From contig NZ_JACIDR010000001.1 in the NCBI RefSeq assembly GCF_014196425.1, positions 1,240,001 through 1,304,000 of the forward strand: DNA of 64,000 nt, given 5' to 3'. Below are positions 1 to 9,926 of this stretch, in pieces; the first letter of the stretch is position 1; each line of letters begins with the position of its first letter. A model generated the notes under the pieces. The model was given only the letters and a program-made list of their open reading frames with translations, had not been told where the DNA came from and ran no database searches. This DNA comes from Hansschlegelia beijingensis. GTDB lineage: Bacteria > Pseudomonadota > Alphaproteobacteria > Rhizobiales > Methylopilaceae. Position numbers and translations under genes: made by a program.

Positions 1-965
1 AGGCGGGGCCGTCCGCTTGACGCCGTAGTATTCGGCCTCGAGCGGGTTCCCGAACAGATCGGCCATCTTGGCGAAGAAGCTCGAATTGCCGAGCGTGTTT
101 AGGAACTTCTCTGCGTTCATGGTCCAGTCGGCGAGCGCACCGGCCACATTCACGATCGCGGACTTGACCCGGTTGTTGATCGTCTCGGCGATCGTCTGGA
201 ATTTGCGGTCGAGCTCCGCGCCCTTCTCGACAAGATCCTTGTCGATGACAACGCCGAGCTTTCGCGCTTCCTCCATATTCAGGCGGATGCCGGCGACGCC
301 CTGGTCGAGGAAGCGGACGAACTGCTCGCCGCCGGTTCCGCCGAAAACCTCGTCAGAGATGCGGATCTGCGCCGCCTTGTCGAAGGCCTGCAGCCTGCCG
401 ATGATCTCGAGGAAGAGATCGGACGGGTTCTTGAGCTTCGTCTTGAGATCGTCGGCGCCGTAGCCGAGGCGAGCGAAGGCCTCCGCAGCCGGCCCCTGCC
501 CCGTCACAATGAACTCGTCGGCGCGAAGCTGCAGCTCCTTGAGCCCGTCCGTCAGAGCATCAACGCCGACGTTCGATTGGCGCGCGGCGTAGCCCAGCGC
601 TTGGAACTGCTCGACGTCGACGCCCGCTTTGGCCGCTTCCGCCTTCAGGTCCGACAGGGAGCGCGTGGCCTCCCGGATCGAGGGGACGATGCTGGCAAGG
701 CCCTGCGAAAGGGCGCCGCCGATAAAGCCGCCGGCAAAGCTCGCGCCAAGGGAGCCAAGACCGGAGTCCAGACGCCCCAGCGCGGTGCGGGCCGAGTCAC
801 CGATCCCGCGCATCTGCTGCTCGACGCGCGCCCGGCTCCGGCCGACGCGCGCCTCGACCGCGGACATGCTGGTGTCCGTAGAGCGGCGCGCACGGTCAAA
901 GCTGCGCTCATACTGGTTTAGCCGCGCCTCGAGGCTGACGACGAGGCGTTCAACTTCAACGGCCA
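1..965 (-). CDS. phage tail tape measure protein, N-terminal part (runs off the window)
   Basis: About 321 codons are visible and the frame stays open to base 1, so the protein is cut by the window edge. It starts at an ATG (963-965) with a GAGG ribosome site about 8 bases upstream; the other ATG at 973 is closed by a stop after five codons. The first 60 residues are strongly helical and charged, then comes a Gly/Ala stretch (SLGASFAGGFIGGALSQG) and a segment of the type 'QALGYAARQSNVGVDAL...LKELQ...AAEAFARLGY', typical of tail length tape measure proteins of siphophage prophages. The family sets tail length and helps DNA ejection. It lies 10 bases after the HK97-gp10-like gene in the same leftward run, which supports a tail role. 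The identification rests on the pattern of the visible third only. Confidence 0.8.
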
Positions 966-975
966 TGCGCCATCC

Positions 976-1392
976 TCACGACTTCGCCGCCTCTCGTGCG
1001 GCCTTTGACACGGCTCGCCGAATGCGAGACTTGGCGCGCTTCTTCGTCAGCCGGTACGCAGGGAAAAAGAACGGCTGCGGGGGCGTGTCCTGCGTCCCGA
1101 ATTCGACGCCGAGCGCGTAGTCGTATGAGACATCAGCGCCGTTCCGGACGGGCTTCGTGGTCGCAGCGCCGCCAGCCACTACCTTGGTCTGCAACTCGTG
1201 CTCGCCCGCCACCTTGCGGATCGTGCTGGCGAGCCTCCCGCTCTTTTTCGGGACTAGGGTGCGCGCCGCAAAGACGACCTGAGAGGCCGCAGCGTCGAGC
1301 TCGGCCGCCATAGCAGCGCGGGCTTTATCCGGTATCGCAGCCAGCCTCCTGTCCAGCCGACGCCGTGCCGCGCGAAGCTGAGCGTCGCTCAC
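976..1392 (-). CDS. HK97 gp10-like head-tail/tail completion protein
   Basis: A 138-aa protein. I start it at GTG 1392 (VSDAQLRAARRR), because this GTG overlaps the stop of the preceding gene by four bases, as elsewhere in this run; a longer reading to 1473 would cover the preceding gene. The segment AARTLVPKKSGRLASTI, followed by a beta-rich middle with YALGVEFGT and a Pro/Phe-rich stretch (TPPQPFFFPAYR) and a basic C-terminal helix, is the usual layout of HK97-gp10 family proteins, which close the tail or join head to tail. Its place just before the tape measure gene fits. Family assignment by pattern, fairly sure. Confidence 0.72.
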   Translation of the reverse strand: MSDAQLRAARRRLDRRLAAIPDKARAAMAAELDAAASQVVFAARTLVPKKSGRLASTIRKVAGEHELQTKVVAGGAATTKPVRNGADVSYDYALGVEFGTQDTPPQPFFFPAYRLTKKRAKSRIRRAVSKAAREAAKS

Positions 1393-1733
1393 GGCTCCAC
1401 CTCGAAAACGTTCTTGTCGGGCTCCAGCCCGAACAGCGCGGCTTCGAGGATCATCGCGGCCATCGGCGCCCATCGCCCAGGCCGATCCTCAAGCACCGCC
1501 GCGACGTCCTGATTGAACATGCGGTTGCCGCTTGGGTGCGCCCAGCTCAGAATTGACTCCACGTCCGAAAGCGACCACTGCCCGCCGACGAAGCCTGTGA
1601 AGGTGTGGTAAACCGTCCTGCCGGTCGTGACAGGTGAATACTGCTCAAACCGCGAGATGTTAGGAATCTGGAACCTAACGTTCTTCCTGCGGCCGAAGGT
1701 CTTTGCGACGACGTAATCGAGCTTCTTGGCCAT
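1389..1733 (-). CDS. phage-type structural or assembly protein, unknown family
   Basis: A 114-aa protein starting at ATG 1733 (MAKKLDYVVAK), where its start overlaps the previous stop by one base (TGATG). I do not recognise the family. The N-terminal half is basic and beta-rich (RRKNVRFQIPNISRF), the middle has GFVGGQWSLSDVESILSW, and the C-terminal half is helical with AAMILEAALFGLE. Its position between small connector-sized genes and the gp10-like gene is where tail terminator or tail assembly chaperone genes usually lie, so a tail assembly role is a guess from position. A further ATG at 1766 in the same frame lies inside the upstream gene and is less likely. Confidence 0.6.
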   Translation of the reverse strand: MAKKLDYVVAKTFGRRKNVRFQIPNISRFEQYSPVTTGRTVYHTFTGFVGGQWSLSDVESILSWAHPSGNRMFNQDVAAVLEDRPGRWAPMAAMILEAALFGLEPDKNVFEVEP

Positions 1734-1975
1734 CAGTGCACCGTTGGGAAGTTTTCGAGCAGCCATTCGCGGAGGCTGCGGAGATACGGGCCGCGCTCCG
1801 CGGCAGCCGCCGCCGACGCTTCATCGGCGAAGGCCTCCGCAAGGCTCGGCGCGTGGCCCTCGCCGATGATCCTTTTCTTGCCCCGCGCGATCTCGGCTGC
1901 GGTGCGGCGGTCGTAATCGGCTGCGGCCTGCGCGATTGCGGCGTCGACCGTCGTGAACTGGTCGGGCTTGCTCAC
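1733..1975 (-). CDS. small phage-module protein, unknown
   Basis: An 80-aa protein. The chosen start is GTG 1975 (VSKPDQFTTVDAA), which overlaps the stop of the preceding gene by four bases; the reading to 2059 would run into that gene. The sequence is Ala/Glu-rich and mostly helical (DAAIAQAAADYDRRTAAEIARG; AEAFADEASAAAAAERGPYLRSLREWL). No known motif is seen. Size and position, between capsid and tail genes, would suit a head-tail connector or assembly factor, but this is positional inference only. Confidence 0.55.
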   Translation of the reverse strand: MSKPDQFTTVDAAIAQAAADYDRRTAAEIARGKKRIIGEGHAPSLAEAFADEASAAAAAERGPYLRSLREWLLENFPTVH

Positions 1976-2268
1976 TTGGCGTCCGCCCCCTTCTTGACGG
2001 CGAGCGTCCAGCAGCCCGACGAGCCCGGCCGCGCCTTGGTTTCGCGATTGCAGAACCACATGCTGCCGCCGTCCGTGACGACGTTGCCCTTGCTGTAGAG
2101 CAAGGCGCCGTCCCAGACGCCGCGATATTCGAGCGCCGGGCGTTCCTCGAGCGCCTTGATCCGAGCTTCTAGGCCAGCGTCATGCGAGGCGATCTCCTGC
2201 GCCACGTACCGCTTGACGCTATCGACGAGCTCCGCGGCGAACTCCTTGCCCCAGGCCTCACCCGCCAT
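1972..2268 (-). CDS. coiled-coil protein with a small Trp-rich beta module, phage module
   Basis: A 98-aa protein started at ATG 2268 (MAGEAWGKEF), 11 bases inside the end of the capsid gene. Residues 1-47 form a helix (LVDSVKRYVAQEIASHDAGLEARIKALEER). Residues 50-92 read YRGVWDGALLYSKGNVVTDGGSMWFCNRE...GCWTLAVKKG, a small Trp/Tyr-rich pattern (GVW..G..Y..G..V...GS.W.....T..PG....W.L..K.G) that resembles the chitin/carbohydrate-binding-like modules appended to portal and tail proteins. Here it stands nearly alone beside the capsid gene, so it could be a head decoration or a fibre-like protein. The function is inferred from the pattern, not demonstrated. Confidence 0.6.
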   Translation of the reverse strand: MAGEAWGKEFAAELVDSVKRYVAQEIASHDAGLEARIKALEERPALEYRGVWDGALLYSKGNVVTDGGSMWFCNRETKARPGSSGCWTLAVKKGADAK

Positions 2269-3334
2269 AGGCCGCACCCGAGATGTAAGCTGCGGCGCCG
2301 GCGCGGCGCTTCTGCCAGCGCATCTGCCGAAGGGCTTTGATGCCGACAAGGTTGGACTGGAAGAACGAAGTCAGGACCGTGCTCGCGGTCGGCGGGTCCG
2401 TGGGCGCCGAGTCCATCTGCACACTGCCGTGCTCCGCCGCGTCGATCACGATCCCGTCGTCGGCCAGGATGATCTCGGTCGCGTCCACGAGCGCGATCAC
2501 GCTGCCGACGCCCGGCGAGGTCAGGACCGGAATGCCCATGATGCTGCCGCCGAGCGGCCCGACGTCGCGGAACATCTCGACGTTCAAGCCAGCTAGGCCC
2601 GTCGCGGCCGTGGGCGACATCAGGAAGTAGGGAGAGGCGAGCGGGATACCGGCGTCAGTCAGCTTCTTGACCAGCGCCTTGAAGTCCGCCGTGGCGGCTG
2701 CGGCGGTCGTGCCGCTCGCGGCGACAGCCGTGGTCCCGTTCGTAATCGAAGCGGGGTTCACGTCATCGACCGCGGCGACGGTCGGATCGACGAACTGCGC
2801 ATCGGTGAAGGTGATGATCGCCGTCTCGAGATCGAGCTTGATCTGAGCCTCGGCTTCCGGGCTCGTGGATCGCAGCAGCTCTTTCGTGGTGACGACGATG
2901 CCGCCGACCTTGGCCGGCTTCAGCGTACCCTCGCCGAACGCCATCGCCGTGACAGGCGTCGGCTTCGCCTCGCCGACCCAGCCCGCCGACGTGCCGCTTG
3001 TGGCGACCGGGAACCGCACGCCGAACGGCGCGGGCCGGATGCCGGCCATTCGGCCGATCAGCGTGCGCGGCCGGACCGCCGCTAGGAAGGCGTCGGCGAC
3101 AGGCGCCAATTCCGCGAGCGGCTTCGCCCAGGTGGCGTCAGTCGTGTCGCCAGCCTCGACCGCAGCCTTCTGGATTACGGCGCCGTATCGTGCCTCAGGC
3201 CACCGCGTCTCGCAGATGGACCGGATCTGAAAGCTGTCGCCGCCGGACATTGCGCACGCGATAGCATAGCGCACGAAGTCCTGAGACTTCGCCTCCATGT
3301 CATAGCGAGCCACGGTCTGGGTTAGAGCGTTCAT
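2258..3334 (-). CDS. phage major capsid protein, HK97 fold
   Basis: A 358-aa protein with an ATG at 3334 and an AAGGA ribosome site about 9 bases upstream. It has the usual parts of the HK97-type shell protein: a short N-terminal region (about residues 1-75), then AVRPRTLIGRMAGIRP...VRFPV (N-arm/E-loop start), WVGEAKPTPVTAM, KVGGIVVTTKELLR (P-domain), a central A-domain with Ala/Thr-rich linker, and SIMGIPVLTSPGVG followed by a C-terminal strand region ending in FFQSNLVGIKALRQMRW. The N-terminal delta/scaffold part is short and no prohead protease gene is next to it. It is followed by four small tail/connector genes. The missing portal and terminase upstream is unusual for a normal head operon. 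Confidence 0.85.
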   Translation of the reverse strand: MNALTQTVARYDMEAKSQDFVRYAIACAMSGGDSFQIRSICETRWPEARYGAVIQKAAVEAGDTTDATWAKPLAELAPVADAFLAAVRPRTLIGRMAGIRPAPFGVRFPVATSGTSAGWVGEAKPTPVTAMAFGEGTLKPAKVGGIVVTTKELLRSTSPEAEAQIKLDLETAIITFTDAQFVDPTVAAVDDVNPASITNGTTAVAASGTTAAAATADFKALVKKLTDAGIPLASPYFLMSPTAATGLAGLNVEMFRDVGPLGGSIMGIPVLTSPGVGSVIALVDATEIILADDGIVIDAAEHGSVQMDSAPTDPPTASTVLTSFFQSNLVGIKALRQMRWQKRRAGAAAYISGAAYGG

Positions 3335-3421
3335 CTAGCGCGGTCCTTTGTCCAATCGTTGCCTGGGGACCGTGAGTCAGACTTGGCGCGAGCTCAATGA
3401 CGTCTGTGGTAAGCGCCGGGC

Positions 3422-3775
3422 TTATCGCACGCTCGGAACCGCCACGACCTGCCAGAGGATGCCGGCCCGGTCGGTCCCGGCGCGCAGCACGGAAAGCCCG
3501 CCAAACTCCTGTCCTTCTAGGGAGGAAAGCAGTTGACCAAGAGCGCGGGCGTTGCGCGCGCCGCACTGGTCGAGCGCCGCGGCGAGGCTCGGAACCGATG
3601 TGGTAAGCGGCGGGCTTACCACATCCGCGGCGACGAAAAGGGAGTCGCCATTGGCCTCTGCCAGAGCCTTGAGCAGCGCCACCTTCGGAGCCGGGCGACT
3701 TGCGACTGCTTCCCGGATCACCTGCAGCTCGCGCATGGCGCGGTCGATCGCCGACAGCAAAGCCGTGTCGTTCAT
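3422..3775 (-). CDS. unknown protein between replication and capsid genes
   Basis: A 117-aa protein started at ATG 3775 (MNDTALLSAIDRAMREL). Residues 1-50 are helical; residues 68-117 (VPSLAAALDQCGARNARALGQLLSSLEGQ, then GLSVLRAGTDRAGILWQVVAV) look like a small helix-turn-helix-like bundle followed by a beta hairpin, but I recognise no family. The reading can be extended to 4048 without a stop, but that part has poor coding character and covers the palindromic repeats at 3860-3953. The start has no strong ribosome site, so the exact N-terminus is uncertain. The gene lies where a terminase or portal would be in a standard phage; nothing in it looks like either. Confidence 0.5.
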   Translation of the reverse strand: MNDTALLSAIDRAMRELQVIREAVASRPAPKVALLKALAEANGDSLFVAADVVSPPLTTSVPSLAAALDQCGARNARALGQLLSSLEGQEFGGLSVLRAGTDRAGILWQVVAVPSVR

Positions 3776-3859
3776 CCGCAGCGCCAGAGTGAGGGGGGGC
3801 GTGTCTGGCTGGACGAGGGGCTTCGGCTGCAGACCGGCGGTGTATTTACGCGCAGATTT

Positions 3860-3953
3860 TTTCTCGTACCGAGAAATCGTACCGGCATAACCCCAAGAGA
3901 ATGAAGGGCTTCGGATTGATTTCGGTACGATATCGTACCGGGCATTCGTACCG
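3860..3953. repeat. cluster of CGGTACGA/TCGTACCG motifs including two palindromes
   Basis: The 8-mer TCGTACCG occurs at 3877-3884, 3933-3940 and 3946-3953, with a near copy (CTCGTACCG) at 3863-3871, and in inverted form (CGGTACGA) at 3923-3930. The 3923-3940 stretch is a perfect 18-base palindrome (CGGTACGATATCGTACCG), and 3860-3876 is a 17-base palindrome (TTTCTCG, TAC, CGAGAAA). Direct copies are spaced 13 bases apart in two pairs. The cluster lies 85-180 bases upstream of the 3422-3775 gene and of the capsid run, so it may be the operator/promoter that switches the structural genes, or protein-binding sites of a replication origin. A run of nine G follows at 3953-3961. Confidence 0.7.
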
Positions 3954-4318
3954 GGGGGGGGACGTCGACGGTTCGGCCCCATCGGGCTCTCGCACCGGCG
4001 CCATCCGAAAACACGCACAAAGCCATATTGACGTTCTGGGAGCGCCAATCTGGCTGCGCCGGGGTGCCGAAATCCGCTGCAGAGAACCTTTTTTCTACCG
4101 GTTTAGCGCAGCCGACCTTGGGCGCCGGTCCGCAGAAAACCGCTTGGCGAGACGCGACGGCCCCCCGCCCTCTTGCGATGCGATGGCGTGTTCGGATTGG
4201 CCTCGTCAGAACATCAATCTGCAAAAATGCGCGCTTTGGACCCCAGCCGGTCCGCGATCGATCGGCGCGCCAGGTGCGGATGCCCCCGCCCCGATGCCTG
4301 CGCCGACCAGGTCGCGCC

Positions 4319-4447
4319 GGAGCATCCGGAGCACTCGGAGCATTCTCCATAGAGGCCCCACAGCGCCACGCTGTCTCGAATCTCAAAACGCGAGCTTGGT
4401 GCTCCGTATGCTCCGGGTGCTCCGGGTGCTCCGGCGCGCGGTGCTCC
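4319..4447. repeat. two facing arrays of 9-base repeats (candidate replication origin)
   Basis: Three tandem 9-mers GGAGCATCC, GGAGCACTC, GGAGCATTC lie at 4319-4345. About 50 bases further, four tandem 9-mers in the opposite sense (TGGTGCTCC, GTATGCTCC, GGGTGCTCC, GGGTGCTCC) lie at 4397-4432, with a fifth TGCTCC at 4442-4447. The two arrays are inverted copies of the same unit (GGAGCAyyC). They begin eight bases past the end of the primase-helicase gene. In P4-type satellites the origin consists of short iterated sites bound by the primase-helicase itself, so an origin is the natural guess; no origin activity can be shown from sequence alone. Confidence 0.65.
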
Positions 4448-4454
4448 ACTGTGG

Positions 4455-6638
4455 TCAGCGCCGGAGCCATTGTACCAACCCTTCCGCCGTCTTTTTCGGT
4501 GCGCGCACCCACCCGAGCCGTTCAAGCGCAGCTGCGATCCGCCGCTGGTCGGCGGTGCCAAGCCTGCCCCGTTCGATGTTGAGGCACTCCTCTGAGGTGC
4601 CGACCTCCTTGACGGTCGTGACCGTCCGGCTCGCCAGGAAGGTCGCTATCACGTCCTCCCAGGCGTCGGCCTCGAAGCGCTCTTCCTGCTGCGGCGCGAT
4701 ATGCTTCCGTTCAAAGTCGCCATCCGGCCACCAGTGCGCGCCGCCGCGGTAGGCTGCGACGGCCTCGGCGAAGAGCTGCTCCCGGTCGCGTTCAAGAGCG
4801 TCCGTCTCGATCCGACCGACCTTCACGGGCCAGAAGCGACGGCCGCCCGTCTCGTCGCGGAGGTAGGCGGATTTGTTGGTCGTCCCGATGAAGACGCATT
4901 GGCGCGGCTGAACCACCTCCTTGCGCCCGTAGCTCGGCCGGTAACGTTCGACAGGCCTAGTGATGAAGGCCTTGAGGCTCGCGCTTTCGGCACGGCTCAT
5001 AGCGCTCATTTCGGCGATCTCGATCAGCCATTTGCCAGACAGATGCTGCGCAACGTCCTTGCCGGCGGTGACGTCGGGAAGGTTGTCCGAGAACCACTCG
5101 CCGCCGATGATCGCGCAGGCCGTCGACTTTCGCGCGCCCTGCGCGCCCTCGAGCACCATCATGTAATCGGCCTTGCAGCCCGGCTGGAAAATCCGGGCCA
5201 CCATCGAGACGAAGAACATGTAGCCGATGCCGGACGCGTAGGCGGACGGCTCAACGCCGAGATAGGCAGCGAGCCAGCCCCGAAGCCGCTCCTGACCGTC
5301 CCAGGTCAGCGCCTCGAGGTACTCACGCACGGGATGGAAAGCGTTCTCCTGCGCCCTCAGGTCAACCGCCTGGTGCACAACGTCCTTGGAGACCTTCCGC
5401 AGCCCTGAGAGCTGCAGGTACTCCTGGATCGCGCTCACATCCGCATCGCTGACCGGACGCGGCGCGAACGGTTCCGTCGGCGGCTTTGCGCCGAATACGG
5501 GAACGGGCCGCATAAGCGTGCCGGCGCAGAGCATCTCGTCATAGGCGACGAGCTGCCGAAGCTGCGGATCGCTCCGCATGCCGATCATGACGTTCGCCAG
5601 CGTGTTCAACGGCGCGCCGCGTTCGTCGCGCAACGCCTCGTCGACCCAGGCGGCGTTGCCGCCGCCCTCTGCCTTCCGACCGCGATAGCCGAGCAGATTT
5701 GGATCGGCGCCCAGCTTCTCGCACAGCCAGAGCGCCGCTCGCCTTGCGTCGGGCGCCCCGCCCCACTCCATCACCAGATCGATTGGCGTACGGCCGCGCT
5801 CTTCGCCGAAGTCCTGCACGCCCTGCGGGTGGATGCTGATGTCTTCCTCGAGGCTGCGTCCGAGATCGGCCGACGAGATCCGCCAGGCTCGCGTGCCTTC
5901 CTGGAAACGAGCCTGCGGAAAGATGTCCGCGACCCAAGCCTCGATGTTTCGAAGCGCCTCCCGGTTGACTTCCTGAAAGAAGCCGCCGCCGATGATGTTG
6001 GCGATCTTCCCTCGCCTGCCGTTGGCGACCGCGACTGGAGTGGCCATCGGATCAGGCTGCGCCTTCACAGCCGGCAGGATGAGCTCGTACAGCCAGGCTG
6101 GCGCGGGCGCGAAGACGAACCAGTCCAGGCTCTCGGCGACCCGGTACTCCTTGCCGTCGAACGTGCGGCTCGGCGGGACGATGATGTATCCGCCCTTCCC
6201 GCGGACATCGATGCCGTCCGGAAGATCCCCCGAGCTGGTCGTGACCGGCCGCTCAGGATCCCAGGCGAAGAGTAGATGGAGACCGCCGCCGGGTGTCTCG
6301 TGAGTATGCGTCGGCGGGACGCCGCCGCGGGCGCGAGACAGGCTCTCCCAGGCCGCGAAGCCGTCGGGGTGGTCGGCAGACTTCGGCTTGTCCGGATCGA
6401 GCGCCCACACTCCTGTCGCCGGACCCGTGGGGACGCCGATCATCGCCGCGGGCCATTTTCCCCACCAGTTGCGGATCACAGACTCGTCCGTCGTCGCGTC
6501 CTTGAACCCGTGCTCGGTCAGGGGGCGCTTGTTCGCCGGGCTGCAGGGGAAAACAGGCCAACCGCGGGCCGCATAGAACAGCGCATGGTCGACGAGGCGC
6601 TCACATACCGGCGGCGCCACCGCGAGATTGGCGCTCAT
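4455..6638 (-). CDS. primase-polymerase fused to VapE/D5-type helicase
   Basis: A 727-aa protein, ATG at 6638 overlapping the previous stop by four bases. Residues 1-190 are a bifunctional primase/polymerase (prim-pol) domain: ARGWPVFPCSPANKRPL, GVPTGPATGVWALDPD with the acidic metal site, and GGGLHLLFAW; GGYIIVPPS follows. Residues about 420-700 match the virulence-associated E family of superfamily 3-like ATPases: VREYLEALTWDGQERL, Walker A-type GAQGARKST, Walker B-like LIEIAEM, and FIGTTN...LRDETGGRRFWPV. Such proteins prime and unwind element DNA at its own origin, like the alpha protein of satellite P4. The repeat arrays directly after the gene fit this. The exact order of polymerase and helicase action is not visible from sequence. 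Confidence 0.9.
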   Translation of the reverse strand: MSANLAVAPPVCERLVDHALFYAARGWPVFPCSPANKRPLTEHGFKDATTDESVIRNWWGKWPAAMIGVPTGPATGVWALDPDKPKSADHPDGFAAWESLSRARGGVPPTHTHETPGGGLHLLFAWDPERPVTTSSGDLPDGIDVRGKGGYIIVPPSRTFDGKEYRVAESLDWFVFAPAPAWLYELILPAVKAQPDPMATPVAVANGRRGKIANIIGGGFFQEVNREALRNIEAWVADIFPQARFQEGTRAWRISSADLGRSLEEDISIHPQGVQDFGEERGRTPIDLVMEWGGAPDARRAALWLCEKLGADPNLLGYRGRKAEGGGNAAWVDEALRDERGAPLNTLANVMIGMRSDPQLRQLVAYDEMLCAGTLMRPVPVFGAKPPTEPFAPRPVSDADVSAIQEYLQLSGLRKVSKDVVHQAVDLRAQENAFHPVREYLEALTWDGQERLRGWLAAYLGVEPSAYASGIGYMFFVSMVARIFQPGCKADYMMVLEGAQGARKSTACAIIGGEWFSDNLPDVTAGKDVAQHLSGKWLIEIAEMSAMSRAESASLKAFITRPVERYRPSYGRKEVVQPRQCVFIGTTNKSAYLRDETGGRRFWPVKVGRIETDALERDREQLFAEAVAAYRGGAHWWPDGDFERKHIAPQQEERFEADAWEDVIATFLASRTVTTVKEVGTSEECLNIERGRLGTADQRRIAAALERLGWVRAPKKTAEGLVQWLRR

Positions 6639-6868
6639 GCGGCGCCTCCAAGATCGGCGTGCTCCGCCATCCAGCGCTCGGCGAAGGCTTCCGCCTCATC
6701 CGGATCGCCGAACGTCGCCAGCACGTCGAAGCCGTTCTGACCGTCGTGACGGAACAGCTCGACGTCATAGACGACAGAGCCGCCCTCCCCGCCGTGGTAG
6801 GCGGTGATGTCGATGCGGGGCAGGCACGGCTTGGTGGAGCGGCGGAAGGGAAGCACGGTCGCGCTCAT
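6635..6868 (-). CDS. small unknown protein upstream of primase
   Basis: A 77-aa protein, ATG 6868, overlapping its neighbours on both sides by four bases (ATGA type). It has a basic Pro-containing start (MSATVLPFRRSTKPCLP), then a beta-rich core with GGSVVYDVELFRHDGQNGFDV, and ends with an acidic helix (DPDEAEAFAERWMAEHA). No family is recognised. The tight overlaps with the primase gene suggest translational coupling and a role in element replication or its control. Confidence 0.6.
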   Translation of the reverse strand: MSATVLPFRRSTKPCLPRIDITAYHGGEGGSVVYDVELFRHDGQNGFDVLATFGDPDEAEAFAERWMAEHADLGGAA

Positions 6869-7071
6869 CGCCGCGCCTCCTGCGGCCCAAGGCCGGCGAG
6901 TTCGACGACAAGCGCAGCCACGGCCGCCGAGACCGCGAAGCGCCGCGAAAGGCGATTGATAATCAGGCTGGGGATGCTATTTTCGGAAGCGTCGATCGTC
7001 CCAACGAAGACAGCTTCCGAAGCCTGCCGGCGTCCCACCGCCGCGCAGGCTTCATCGTATCTGGAGCCCAT
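6865..7071 (-). CDS. small unknown protein downstream of AlpA-like regulator
   Basis: A 68-aa protein with ATG at 7071, three bases after the stop of the AlpA-like gene and overlapping the next gene by four bases. Residues 1-25 are mixed (YDEACAAVGRRQASEAVFVG); residues 30-62 contain IINRLSRRFAVSAAVAALVVELAGLG, a hydrophobic helix that could be a membrane segment or a packing helix. No family assigned. It is kept because of the unbroken overlapping gene chain. Confidence 0.5.
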   Translation of the reverse strand: MGSRYDEACAAVGRRQASEAVFVGTIDASENSIPSLIINRLSRRFAVSAAVAALVVELAGLGPQEARR

Positions 7072-7074
7072 GGA

Positions 7075-7254
7075 TCAAGCGGCCTCCAGACGCGAGGCTT
7101 CCCAGGCCTCGACATCTTCACGCCGCCACCGAGTGCAGCCGGTCGAGAGCTTGATGGGCTTCGGGAAGCGACCATCGGCGACCCAGCGCCAGATGGTCTG
7201 CCGGACCACGCCGAAGCGCGCAGCTAGGTCCGTGTCACTGAGGTATGTCGTCAT
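7075..7254 (-). CDS. AlpA-family helix-turn-helix regulator / excisionase-like
   Basis: A 59-aa protein from ATG 7254 to TGA 7075. It reads MTTYLSDTDLAARFGVVRQT, then IWRWVADGRFPKPIKLSTG, then TRWRREDVEAWEAS. This is the MerR/AlpA-type winged helix-turn-helix of prophage AlpA and excisionase proteins: recognition helix LAARFGVVRQTIWRW, the conserved GRFPKPIKL wing, and the W...DVEAWEASR end. In P4-like elements AlpA activates the integrase and steers excision. It is placed between the integrase pair and the replication genes in the same orientation, as in many satellite elements. The DNA sites it binds are unknown; the palindromes at 3860-3940 are one candidate. Confidence 0.85.
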   Translation of the reverse strand: MTTYLSDTDLAARFGVVRQTIWRWVADGRFPKPIKLSTGCTRWRREDVEAWEASRLEAA

Positions 7255-7344
7255 TTCTCGCCTCGCGTCGTTATCTGACGCAGGCGAAAATGCGGCCCTC
7301 AGAAAGGATCTTCACACATAGGAAGAGGCGCAATCAGGCCGAAG

Positions 7345-8031
7345 CTATGGGTCGGACCGGCGATGCACCTTCCATGCGTGGAGGCAAGACCGTGCGTTCC
7401 AGTCGCGGCCCAACGCTTCGATGAGGTCCTCCAAAAAGTGCAGAAAAGGTCCTTCGCTGGTGTCACCTTTCGGTGCGGCCTTCCCGGTGTTTTCCATCCA
7501 AAATCTCCGAGCATTCTCGACCAGAGAGATGCGCGCCCAGGTCTCTGCACTGCGTTGCTGTTTGCTTTCGTCTGGGTAGTGCGAAAGCAGCTCCTCCGCT
7601 GAAGTCAAAGCATCCTCTTGATCCACACCGACGAGCGGAGGCATGGGTTCCTGCGGAGCTTGCCCGGTGAGCCCGACGTGGAGCTGCCAACAGAGATCAC
7701 GAGCTGAGTGCACGATCTCGCCATAGCTGGCCCATACAGCGGCGGTGTGCGGCGACGACTGTCTCCTAGCGCGAGCGTTCCTCCGAAATGTCTCCTCGAT
7801 GTCCATTCTCAGCTCAGGAGAGAGGGCGTTGAGGGCCTCCCAGGCTTCCGCGATGCCGCGACGCAACTTCGTGAGGTGCTCTCGCTCTTTCTCGCGCCAC
7901 ATTCCCCGCCCGTTCATGTCGACGAGCAGGAAAAACTCGTCGAGTAAGAGGTCGGCGTGATCTCCTAGCTCGATCCCGGGGAAGTGGTCGCGAAGTACGT
8001 CGGCGACGGTTGGCCGGTTTTCCTTCCTCAT
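7345..8031 (-). CDS. unknown 228-aa protein coupled to integrase (possible cargo)
   Basis: Start at ATG 8031 (MRKENRPTVADVLRDHFPG), which overlaps the integrase stop by four bases; upstream codons in the same frame fall inside the integrase gene. The protein is mostly helical, rich in charged residues and Trp, with segments ADLLLDEFFLLVDMNGRG, LRRGIAEAWEALNAL, RMDIEETFRRNAR and DALTSAEELLSHYPDES. No catalytic motif, membrane segment or signal is seen and no family is recognised. The position next to the integrase, at the element edge, is where satellites and prophages often carry host-benefit or defence genes, but there is no direct evidence for such a role. Confidence 0.6.
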   Translation of the reverse strand: MRKENRPTVADVLRDHFPGIELGDHADLLLDEFFLLVDMNGRGMWREKEREHLTKLRRGIAEAWEALNALSPELRMDIEETFRRNARARRQSSPHTAAVWASYGEIVHSARDLCWQLHVGLTGQAPQEPMPPLVGVDQEDALTSAEELLSHYPDESKQQRSAETWARISLVENARRFWMENTGKAAPKGDTSEGPFLHFLEDLIEALGRDWNARSCLHAWKVHRRSDP

Positions 8032-9323
8032 CCGCGCCGCCCTAGCCTGACGACCTTCGCCCCTGCCGCCCCGCTCAGGAACCGGCTCCATGCGTCCATC
8101 ATGGCCCGCCGCTTCTCAACCATGTCGGACCGGCGATAGGCGCGCTCGACCTCTGAGCCGACGCTGTGCGCCAACGCGATCTCGGCCATGTCACGCGGGT
8201 ATTCGGTCCGCTCCGCCGCCCAGTCACGGAAGGTCGATCGTAGGCCGTGCGGGACGGCTGGACGCCCGCTGCGCGGGTCCAGATAGCCGGGCCGCCCGGC
8301 GGCGACCTCAGCCTCTTGCATACGGCGCATGACGGCTGAGAGCGACATGTCGGACAATGGCCCGCCACGTACTGCGGCGAACACGTAATCGGAGCCGTCG
8401 ATCCGCGGCAACGTCTCCAGAAGCTCCGCAGCGGCGTCAGACAGCGGGACGCGGTGCTCGGCTCTCATCTTCATGCGCGCGGCCGGGATGATCCAAAGCC
8501 GTTTCTTCAGATCGATCTCGCTCCACACGGCGCCGCGGACCTCGCCAGAGCGGGAGGCGCAAAGGGCGAGGAACTCAAGCGCGCGCGTCGCCATGCCGTC
8601 CCGGTGCCGGAGCTCGGCGAACCAGGTCGCAGCGTCGTCCAGCGCCAGAGCAGGCTGGTTGTCGACCTTGGCCACCTTCCCAGGTTTCGGAAGGACAGCC
8701 TCAAGGTTCCCCTTCCACCGGGCGGGATTGTCGCCGACGCGATGCCCCGCGACGGTGGCCCAATTCAGGATGGACTCGACGCGCCCCCGCAGGCGGGAGG
8801 CCGTCTCGGTCTTCACGGTCCAGATCGGCTCGAGCACCCTGAGCATGTCCTGCAGCGCGATGTCGGACACGAGCATGCCTCCGATCAGCGGCGTGGCGTA
8901 AACGTCGATCGTCGCCCGCCATTGCTTCCGGTGCTTTTCGTTCCGGAACTCGGCGAGCCGCTTCTCGAGGTACCGCTCGACCGCGTCGGCGAACGTCAGG
9001 CCTCGCGCGTGCGCGGCTGCCAGCGACGCTCTTGCGGCCCTCTTCTCGAGAATCGGATCAACGCCAGCGGCGATCTTGTCGCGGACCTCGCGAGCCTTCT
9101 CGCGCGCCGCGGCCAGGGTGACGTCAGGATAGCCGCCGAGCCCGATCTCACGTCGACGACCGCCCGCCCGGATACGCAGCAGCCAACTCTTCGCGCCGTT
9201 CGGCGTGACCTGCACGGCGAGCCCCGAGACGCCGCCAACGGCATGAACGGTCGGGAGCCGCCCGCCCCCGTGAGCAAGGCGTTTGACGTCCAGAGCAGAG
9301 AGCTCGCGCGCCTTCTTCGGCAT
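8028..9323 (-). CDS. int: tyrosine recombinase, P4-type integrase
   Basis: 431 aa from ATG 9323 (MPKKARELSALDVKRL). The N-terminal 100 residues are the DUF4102 arm-binding domain (GLAVQVTPNGAKSWLLRIRAGGRRREIGLGGYPDVTLAAAR in pieces). A SAM-like core-binding domain follows (about 105-205), then the catalytic domain with the first Arg in SRSGEVR, the HGLRSTF box (His and second Arg), a second His in ALAHSVGS and the nucleophile Tyr in ERAYRRSDM. All residues needed for strand exchange are present, so the enzyme is probably active. The start lies 10 bases from a tRNA-like 3' end at 9333-9356, as expected for this class, which integrates at tRNA 3' ends. An upstream ATG at 9380 would translate that tRNA fragment and is unlikely. 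Confidence 0.93.
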   Translation of the reverse strand: MPKKARELSALDVKRLAHGGGRLPTVHAVGGVSGLAVQVTPNGAKSWLLRIRAGGRRREIGLGGYPDVTLAAAREKAREVRDKIAAGVDPILEKRAARASLAAAHARGLTFADAVERYLEKRLAEFRNEKHRKQWRATIDVYATPLIGGMLVSDIALQDMLRVLEPIWTVKTETASRLRGRVESILNWATVAGHRVGDNPARWKGNLEAVLPKPGKVAKVDNQPALALDDAATWFAELRHRDGMATRALEFLALCASRSGEVRGAVWSEIDLKKRLWIIPAARMKMRAEHRVPLSDAAAELLETLPRIDGSDYVFAAVRGGPLSDMSLSAVMRRMQEAEVAAGRPGYLDPRSGRPAVPHGLRSTFRDWAAERTEYPRDMAEIALAHSVGSEVERAYRRSDMVEKRRAMMDAWSRFLSGAAGAKVVRLGRRG

Positions 9324-9332
9324 AGGCCGCCC

Positions 9333-9356
9333 GTTCGATTCCGGGTCCGTCCGCCA
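9333..9356 (+). other. attR: attachment site core: 3' end of a tRNA gene, probably tRNA-Ser
   Basis: The stretch reads like a tRNA end: TTCGATT loop (9334-9340), the 3' half of the T stem CCGGG (9341-9345), seven acceptor bases TCCGTCC (9346-9352), discriminator G and CCA (9354-9356). The 5' T-stem bases do not pair properly and no 5' acceptor half (GGACGGA expected) occurs about 90 bases before, so this is only a fragment. Discriminator G with this acceptor sequence suits tRNA-Ser. Fragment duplication of a tRNA 3' end is the standard trace of integrase-mediated insertion, so the element should end here, with the intact tRNA at its left end. Confidence 0.72.
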
Positions 9357-9406
9357 TCGACTAAAAAGCCGACCCGCCAACCTACCCGCCCAACGCTTTG
9401 TAATTG

Positions 9407-9488: not shown

Positions 9489-9524
9489 GGCGGAGACAGG
9501 AAGATGCCTTCCTCCGTCTCCGCC
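9489..9524. repeat. stem-loop with 9-base outer stem
   Basis: GGCGGAGAC (9489-9497) pairs perfectly with GTCTCCGCC (9516-9524). Inside, GGAAG (9499-9503) pairs with CTTCC (9508-9512), leaving a four-base loop. The 3' side ends GTCTCCGCCA like a tRNA acceptor end, but the whole is only 36 bases, so it is not a tRNA. No T-run follows, so factor-independent termination is doubtful. Confidence 0.5.
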
Positions 9525-9926
9525 ACATTCTTCAGCCTAGGCGCTCTAGGGCGAGGCCGCCGTCACAGCCCGGAAGAACCGTCGTTGTTCTCTCCCGACG
9601 TCGAACCGGCGACGCGCTGAAAGGCGGTGCTGATCCGAGTCGGTCGCCCGGACGCGAAATCGGACGTGAGGGGCCCTGTCGGCGGCGCTGCGGATCGGTA
9701 CCTGGTGACCCAATTGGGCGATTGCCCCGGGCTCTCAGCACTGCTCGTCGGGGCCACAGACGACATCGCAAGGCTGGAGCCGCCGCCCAGCGAAGCCGGT
9801 GCGCCGAGGGCCGGTTCACCCGCTGATGGCGAAGATCGCGAGCCGGATGCGGGGCCCTGCCCCCTCGTCTTTCAGCCATCGACGCCGTTCAGAAAACCGC
9901 GCCGCACGTGAACCGATGCAGCTCGC

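Follow-up and report, generated by a model that had tools for sequence, protein, structure and literature searches.

Among the described phage satellites, several carry their own homologue of the phage capsid protein. SaPIbov5 of Staphylococcus aureus encodes Ccm, an HK97-fold protein of 355 aa whose delta domain is 44 residues shorter than that of the helper protein and which cannot replace it (PMC5052747). Ccm occupies the pentamers of the helper shell, giving a T=4 shell (PMC8569155), and its expression alone lowers the phage titre 10^3-10^4-fold (PMC5052747). The phage-inducible chromosomal islands (PICIs) PmCI172 and EcCICFT073 likewise carry a capsid homologue (PMC6893505, PMC6092414), and PmCI172 particles have small heads (PMC6092414). 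Capsid-forming PICIs (cf-PICIs) encode capsid, large and small terminase subunits (TerL, TerS), portal, protease and connectors, so that tails are all they borrow (PMC10690885); within the phage capsid tree the cf-PICI capsids fall into three clades (PMC11389934). We analysed 64 kb of the chromosome of Hansschlegelia beijingensis (assembly GCF_014196425.1, contig NZ_JACIDR010000001.1, positions 1,240,001-1,304,000 of the forward strand, i.e. G000:C1:1240001-1304000; hereafter the window) and describe an island which, judged from its sequence, is probably an integrated, helper-dependent phage satellite that would work like a Gram-negative PICI and contribute a co-assembling capsid and a tape measure protein. 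In the following, L numbers denote loci, G numbers genomes and C numbers contigs.

Base 1 of the window falls inside the tape-measure gene. Reading on leftward to an intact tRNA-Ser(gct), as the original prediction had suggested, gives a complete island of 16,072 bp from repeat to repeat. Two loci of the same chromosome around the island were used, L004 (20 kb, the contiguous sequence leftward of the window) and L005 (12 kb). The tRNA gene (attL) is located some 6.55 kb left of base 1, at G000:C1:1233362-1233453 (L004:8362-8453). At the other end a 16-bp repeat of the tRNA 3' end, i.e. the last 15 tRNA bases plus one, lies just outside the integrase gene (int); a tRNA-end match of 16 bp within 1 kb past int occurred in 0 of 1000 shuffles. 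A search for an empty site by way of the gene right of attR gave one weak match in the 12 other genomes of the genus. The proposed gene order from int to the tape measure and the gene sizes are borne out by calls of open reading frames (ORFs), Pfam and PHROGs. For int itself the identity stood while the start did not: the frame opens at 9380, position 9356 is not a start codon and the ATG at 9323 is the more likely start. The features in window coordinates are as follows.

1..966, continuing about 1.35 kb left of base 1, minus strand: tape measure protein, 771 aa in full (phrog_10574, 1e-144)
976..1392, minus strand: HK97-gp10-like neck/tail-completion protein, 138 aa (Pfam HK97-gp10, 2.4e-4; PHROGs)
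1389..1733, minus strand: 114-aa protein without PHROG family match
1733..1975, minus strand: 80-aa protein without PHROG family match
1972..2268, minus strand: 98-aa protein with a C-terminal domain common to phage portal-module and tail-fibre proteins
2258..3334, minus strand: HK97-fold major capsid protein, 358 aa (Pfam Phage_capsid, 1.3e-12; PHROGs)
3422..3775, minus strand: 117-aa protein directly upstream of the capsid
3864..3953, no strand: TCGTACCG sites, five copies, two of which make an 18-bp palindrome
4313..4438, no strand: candidate origin with two 9-bp iteron sets (4317-4343 and 4398-4434) in inverted orientation
4455..6638, minus strand: prim-pol/VapE-type primase-helicase, 727 aa (Pfam Prim-Pol 1.2e-40, VapE 2.5e-77; PHROGs)
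6635..7071, minus strand: two small overlapping genes, 68 and 77 aa (ORF calls)
7075..7254, minus strand: AlpA-like helix-turn-helix (HTH) regulator, 59 aa (Pfam HTH_17/AlpA)
7345..8091, minus strand: 248-aa protein of unknown function, with a partial relative after int in L050 (E 2e-8)
8028..9323, minus strand: tyrosine integrase from the first ATG (Pfam Arm-DNA-bind_3, Phage_int_M, Phage_integrase), scanned as 8028-9356
9511..9526, no strand: attR, the 16-bp repeat of the tRNA-Ser(gct) 3' end

EcCICFT073 shares with this island int, AlpA/HTH, primase, paired iterons 3' of the primase and a capsid homologue, all in the same order. Its annotated region holds the capsid and a small head gene, with no terminase, portal or tape measure annotated, and its integrase matches those of our islands (1e-63). 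EcCICFT073 and PmCI172 belong to the Gammaproteobacteria, the window island to the Alphaproteobacteria. Published PICIs are marked by integrase, replication module and regulator in a conserved unidirectional order (PMC6092414); in the window island int, the AlpA-like gene, prim-pol/VapE and the structural operon all lie on the minus strand, an XRE-type gene (L004:9870-10298) being the only one noted on the plus strand. The paired iterons described for PICI origins (PMC6092414, section 6) are present as well. They adjoin the 3' end of the primase gene and flank 54 bp of 57% GC, a stretch that is AT-rich only relative to the 67% GC of the primase gene; the region is probably a replication origin. 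PICIs typically measure 12-15 kb (PMC6092414), the window island 16.07 kb and nine relatives described below 9.3-11.6 kb. With two of the PICI criteria describing the island, our best reading is that the element works like a PICI; formal membership is not claimed. P4-like satellites are marked by P4-type int, AlpA/Vis and an alpha-type primase together with sid/psu/delta; the comparison with them covered int, AlpA and primase, which match at domain level only. SaPIbov5 resembles the island as a satellite with an HK97-fold capsid homologue that is N-terminally shorter than that of the helper (PMC5052747, PMC8569155); the capsids of our islands are without the whole fused protease, Ccm without part of the delta domain. 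For SaPIbov5 the literature consulted names neither a tape measure nor a gp10-like or fibre-like gene of the satellite. The premise of the original prediction, that satellites either borrow the capsid or carry terminase and portal ahead of it, was too narrow, as SaPIbov5, PmCI172 and EcCICFT073 carry a capsid homologue. The island capsid family is best read as different from these precedents, and its host is an alphaproteobacterium.

The structural operon consists of eight genes that overlap or nearly touch (spacings -11, -4, -1, -4, +9, -1 and -28), with GC by codon position of the coding type. The capsid corresponds to the C-terminal half of phrog_617 (2e-48, positions 331-626) and has no protease domain, the same domain being fused to the capsid in related phages. 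Among those, RHph_X2_26, PAJU2 and JLK-2012 have capsids of the same superfamily, 37-40% identical to the window protein across 73-91% of its length, and arrange capsid, neck and tail genes in the same relative order; unlike in the island, their capsid is fused to the protease and stands inside a terminase-portal-tail block. The tape measure contains an internal VanY-type peptidase domain. A recognisable tail tube between capsid and tape measure was not found, as had been predicted: only 9 bp separate the gp10-like gene from the tape measure, and the 80- and 114-aa genes are without family match; the tail-tube model is weak, being positive in one control locus. The 80-, 98-, 114- and 117-aa genes gave no significant match to the local adaptor, head closure, terminator and tube models. 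The 98-aa gene was considered as a working portal and rejected, since its match to a 'portal' PHROG is limited to the 57 C-terminal residues of that family and in RHph_X2_26 the same domain forms the end of a gene located after the portal. AlphaFold gave no usable model for the capsid (mean pLDDT 37) or the 117-aa protein (48).

To search for packaging and tail genes, local models of TerL, portal, protease, TerS, neck and tail proteins were built from eight annotated phages and run against six-frame ORFs of at least 60 aa. Within L004 and L005 the matches were confined to the capsid and the gp10-like gene, with no TerL, portal or protease. Every ORF of at least 330 aa in the window island could be assigned, save ones that overlap assigned genes. 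The claimed lack of terminase and portal thus extends, by local models and large-ORF check, across the 6.5 kb left to tRNA-Ser; terminase, portal and protease genes just left of the window, named beforehand as a refutation, were looked for and not found. Applied to 13 islands (the window island and the 12 relatives introduced below), the local models matched TerL in none, protease in none and portal in one (L037). As controls served ten complete-type loci, where TerL was found in six (L041, L043, L045, L047, L061, L062), portal in seven and protease in eight; the TerL model recovered 6/8 TerL genes of the control loci. L130 gave no TerL by the model, and L063, the continuation of L062, no match at all. 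For phages of this kind, though not for every kind, the local models of TerL, portal and protease can thus be used; those for TerS and connectors are weak. Moreover, ORFs of at least 250 aa were listed for ten delimited islands, L142, L097 and L099; the flanks of the latter two are undelimited and their outer ORFs were scanned in part. Seven ORFs of at least 330 aa in the ten delimited islands and L142 are neither assigned nor overlapping assigned genes: one in L048 (MauJ domain), four in L050 (one tail-fibre-like, phrog_863, 1.5e-14; three without family) and one each in L126 and L142 (no phage family). In Pfam or PHROGs none of the seven matches a terminase or portal. The window element is therefore not a cf-PICI: like cf-PICIs it is an integrative satellite with its own capsid gene, but the packaging set that is complete there (own TerL, TerS, portal, protease and connectors beside the capsid) is mostly missing from our islands, a gp10-like gene being present. 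Nor is it a complete temperate siphophage, as terminase, portal and tail tube were not found.

The same plan recurs in other genomes, together with tRNA att repeats, in order- and class-wide searches. The window capsid matched 32 of 397 genomes of the order, a seven-sequence capsid profile 37 genomes of the order, and a ten-sequence profile 15 of 385 genomes of the class at E <= 1e-6. Neighbourhoods were inspected mainly for the strongest and short-frame matches (excluding e.g. G095, G194, G013, G646 and L132-L134; L060 in part). This revealed 12 further islands whose HK97 capsid belongs to the same superfamily and is intact and protease-less. Of these, 11 lie in genomes: L037 (G391), L039 and L048 (both G023), L050 (G211), L051 (G004), L097 (G340), L098 (G238), L099 (G352), L126 (G597), L127 (G687) and L128 (G657). 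The twelfth, L142, is a 16.1-kb IMG/VR contig. Including the window, the 12 genome islands belong to 11 genomes and ten family codes (f1, f5, f24, f29, f42, f35 twice, f6, f144, f89, f142). L052 (G224), on a 4.7-kb contig, was labelled solo, i.e. protease-less, in the trees and omitted from the absence counts. Scans of genome contigs and viral contigs with the window capsid gave no relative. Among viral contigs, the L051 capsid found six loci, all six with fused capsid and portal; the L050 capsid found none, the L126 capsid its own island only and the L127 capsid L142.

A tRNA gene lies within the fetched stretch of 9 of the 11 non-window genome islands (none in L097 and L099). All nine, like the window island, have a direct repeat of the tRNA 3' end beyond the integrase, giving ten delimited islands; the nine relatives measure 9,288-11,605 bp. 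The repeats are 46-51 bp long in six islands and 15-16 bp in four, the latter each being reached in 0/1000 shuffles. L142 carries a 17-bp repeat with copies 15.4 kb apart. In L126 the 3'-end repeat ties with another repeat of 15 bp, which derives from the tRNA 5' end. The delimited islands occupy Ser, Lys, Phe, Pro and Gln tRNA genes. Ten such clean-ended tRNA islands are not what random decay leaves. An integrase is present in 13/13 islands, in 12 by mutual similarity or family match and in L099, missed by the local integrase model, by Pfam; relatives of the window integrase at E<=1e-5 were found in 9 of the 12 others. In ten of the 13 it stands first and co-oriented with the capsid; it is last in L051 and on the opposite strand in L037 and L099.

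The remaining gene content varies around this scheme. Next to prim-pol/VapE in the window, replication genes are Prim-Pol in L127, DUF5906/RepB primase in L098, an AAA_25 ATPase in L097 and L099, helicase-like in L039 and L051, and in L142 related to that of L051. A 729-aa protein of L037 resembles the replication proteins of L097 and L099; in L048, L050, L126 and L128 no replication gene could be clearly recognised. Ahead of the capsid, L039, L048, L126, L127, L128, L142, L050, L051 and L099 encode a small HTH or basic protein; after it, L039, L050, L126 and L142 encode a relative of the 98-aa protein. In a simple scan with no shuffled control, L051, L097, L126 and L142 showed short repeat arrays located at the replication gene and L098 showed them upstream of this gene, with none in L039, L048, L050, L127 and L128. 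TerS was recognised in L051 and L050 (phrog_12559, 1e-41 and 1e-28) and in L142 (phrog_83, 4e-5), that of L127 being 45% identical to the one of L142 over 73 aa; L126 has a weak match (phrog_83, 0.0076) and shares an HNH gene with L051.

Two observations concern single relatives. Proteins of L039 and L048, both in G023, are 82-83% identical (e.g. L048:4584-5135 versus L039:18425-18925), which suggests recent exchange between the two islands. L037 carries capsid and portal (L037:12548-15165) with no terminase or protease match and tRNA-Gln repeats 11.6 kb apart; possibly it is an intermediate between solo-capsid islands and cf-PICIs.

The 14 protease-less capsids (13 islands and L052) each cover at least 341 of 362 profile positions and are only about 20-42% identical to the window capsid. 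In a first tree of 30 domains, ten of them solo, the label changes four times; in a second of 38 domains with 14 solo it changes five times (bootstrap range 4-5), where shuffled labels give a mean of 11.5-11.6 changes and were as low in 0/500. Omitted rows were L078 and L083 in the first tree; from the second, L086 was left out along with six rows that were short or weak. Stable solo clades are L051, L098, L097 and L099 (100/97) and L048, L050 and L052 (100/100), while the L037 capsid is placed among phages. The sister of the window capsid varies, being L039 in the first tree (83/93) and L126 in the second (83/77). Label changes and clades together indicate that solo capsids arose several times and that at least two lineages then diversified as solo.

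Capsid and tape measure occur together in three islands, the window island, L051 and L142, which were found via capsid searches only; L051 and L142 are, like the window, without recognised TerL, portal and tube, and these two carry TerS. The best tape-measure PHROGs differ (phrog_10574 in the window, phrog_17300 in L051, phrog_2854 in L142), and at E <= 1e-5 window and L051 share 56 residues, window and L142 none. This suggests, at the level of sequence, separate acquisition, which in turn speaks for a use. No tape measure was recognised in the other ten islands, where no search with a tape-measure model was run; it is an optional and not a core part. We found no satellite with its own tape measure in the literature searched, which lacks most subscription papers, and within that literature its carriage by satellite islands is new. 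Some marine satellites, VEIMEs and tycheposons being among the marine types, carry capsid-assembly genes, which may lower the novelty.

Other large genes after the capsid were seen in relatives. L050:6309-7706 and L052:525-2177 match tail-fibre/minor-tail PHROGs (1.5e-14 and 8e-19), and the large proteins L126:6900-8672 and L050:7400-8620 have no PHROG match. Some satellites may hence carry receptor-binding parts of their own.

From this gene content we infer every functional step of the following scheme, including the helper itself. A helper phage would induce the satellite through the AlpA-like regulator; the island would be excised by its own integrase and replicated by its own prim-pol/VapE from the iteron origin, and its DNA packaged by the helper large terminase through the helper portal. 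The structural operon would not form particles alone. Rather, the protease-less capsid would co-assemble with the protease-fused capsid of the helper, in parallel to Ccm of SaPIbov5, and might likewise redirect the size of the shell. Head and neck may be adapted by the 98-aa and gp10-like proteins, and the island tape measure may set length or injection properties of a tail made from helper tube; it could set tail length or interfere with the helper tail. In some relatives TerS would give DNA specificity.

Att ends, gene content, the absence of recognisable motor, portal and protease, recurrence and intact ORFs are direct observations. Several points weigh against reading the element as a PICI-like satellite. 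The TerL model missed two control TerL genes, that of L066 (lambda-type head; TerL, portal and protease annotated), which has zero local-model matches, and that of L131, which PHROGs did find (phrog_2, 4e-33). TerS was not recognised in the window island, by a model that also missed TerS of L142 and L127. In the genus 4/13 genomes have some capsid match, and the intact solo gene is found only in the window's genome. The published PICI criteria exclude structural genes (PMC6092414), and the island holds capsid, gp10-like gene and tape measure, although EcCICFT073 and PmCI172, the criteria's own examples, break this rule too. Neither profile A1 (E 0.68) nor profile A2 (E 0.78) matches the EcCICFT073 capsid, and deletion of that capsid gene did not restore normal phage growth (PMC6092414). 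SaPIbov5 resides in Staphylococcus aureus and not in Alphaproteobacteria, its capsid likeness being taken from descriptions and not from sequence. No matching resident helper is evident, as the capsid of a prophage on contig C2 falls outside the window-capsid clade. Finally, the structural genes that remain stand in phage order with pieces missing, as after deletion.

This last point leads to the alternative already named in the original prediction, a decayed prophage, i.e. a complete siphophage that lost terminase, protease, portal, tail terminator and tube through deletions. The remaining gene order is indeed that of RHph_X2_26, PAJU2 and JLK-2012, and the match of the 98-aa gene is confined to the end of a longer phage gene. 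G312, of the same genus, has a fragmented capsid (L046, G312:C11:7323-7946; 38-54% identity in pieces) with no other island gene matched within the 20 kb searched, indicating that decay also happens. Yet here att ends, integrase and primase are intact and the eight-gene operon is tight with coding-type GC; 11 of the 12 other islands have no TerL, protease or portal match, the twelfth (L037) only portal; the solo label changes five times on the tree, as rarely as none of the 500 shuffles; and TerS follows the capsid in L050 and L051, unlike in phages. We thus regard decay as quite improbable. The capsid-bearing satellite, the other option offered by the original prediction, gains support from the recurring islands, while full ORFs, the tight operon and multi-member clades disfavour decay.

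Somewhat less improbable, though still unlikely, is that capsid, neck and tape-measure proteins act purely in interference, as dominant-negative decoys that poison infecting phages and take no part in an island-carrying particle. The titre loss caused by Ccm alone (PMC5052747) would fit, as would tail assembly and tape measure being known defence targets (PMC10884400, PMC11364771) and the defence-like cargo, namely the SIR2-like protein of L128, the OLD/Gabija-like ATPase near the capsid of L099 and the TIGR04255 protein of the window island. A decoy, however, would hardly need gp10-like and full-length tape-measure genes, TerS and HNH genes of some relatives point to packaging, and the island's having its own integrase, primase and iterons points to a life cycle as a mobile element. 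A reduced cf-PICI, building its capsid from its own protein alone with borrowed motor, portal and tail tube, appears very improbable. In its favour are L037, where a portal accompanies the capsid and neither terminase nor protease was matched, and the published description of cf-PICIs, whose capsid comes with protease, portal, connectors and terminases (PMC10690885). Against it, the packaging genes that define cf-PICIs are missing from the window island and the capsid is without the protease fused to it in phage relatives. Among these explanations the helper-dependent, PICI-like satellite remains the probable one.

Several further features of the locus were noted. A 19-bp direct repeat is found inside the att repeats near both island ends (window 9374-9392, L004:8510-8528), possibly integrase arm sites. 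TCGTACCG has zero copies in the rest of the 64-kb window outside 3864..3953; it stands ahead of the structural operon and is probably an operator. Left of the tape measure ORFs of 79, 212, 282, 243 and 173 aa follow on the same strand, then the XRE-type gene, small ORFs and tRNA-Ser(gct). The 282-aa ORF belongs to the TIGR04255 family (30.7 bits, cut-off 30) and forms with the 243- and 173-aa proteins a three-gene cargo (L004:10606-12682, minus strand). All three have relatives in L053; L055 and L056 hold a TIGR04255 relative and weaker matches to the other two. In L039 a TIGR04255 relative adjoins the capsid, and the 243- and 173-aa proteins are matched weakly. The 243-aa protein has a weak PADLOC candidate match (PDC-M32A, 5e-6). 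In or near other capsid islands are the SIR2-like protein (L128:6134-7201) and the OLD/Gabija-like ATPase (L099:11829-13880), probably anti-phage cargo.

The genome also harbours a complete-type prophage on C2 (G000:C2:152902-160366, L062:7902-15366) with TerL, portal, protease, adaptor, head closure and gp10. It resembles the island in gp10 (31%) and at the ends of the tape measure. As an obvious helper it was rejected, its capsid belonging to another clade.

Taken together, the islands suggest a kit of geometry and specificity parts. It is conceivable, though we hold this only tentatively, that they represent an undescribed satellite branch, recruited several times from protease-fused phage capsids, which carries shell protein, TerS and tape measure, with the helper providing motor, portal, protease and tube, such that head size and tail length would be set by the parasite. 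Proof that a capsid homologue redirects the capsid exists for one staphylococcal satellite; for satellites of Gammaproteobacteria this has been suggested. Here, protease-less capsids without a motor are found in 12 genome islands of 11 genomes, with ten family codes and in several clades, and it becomes a testable idea that a satellite may set the tail length of the stolen particle as well.

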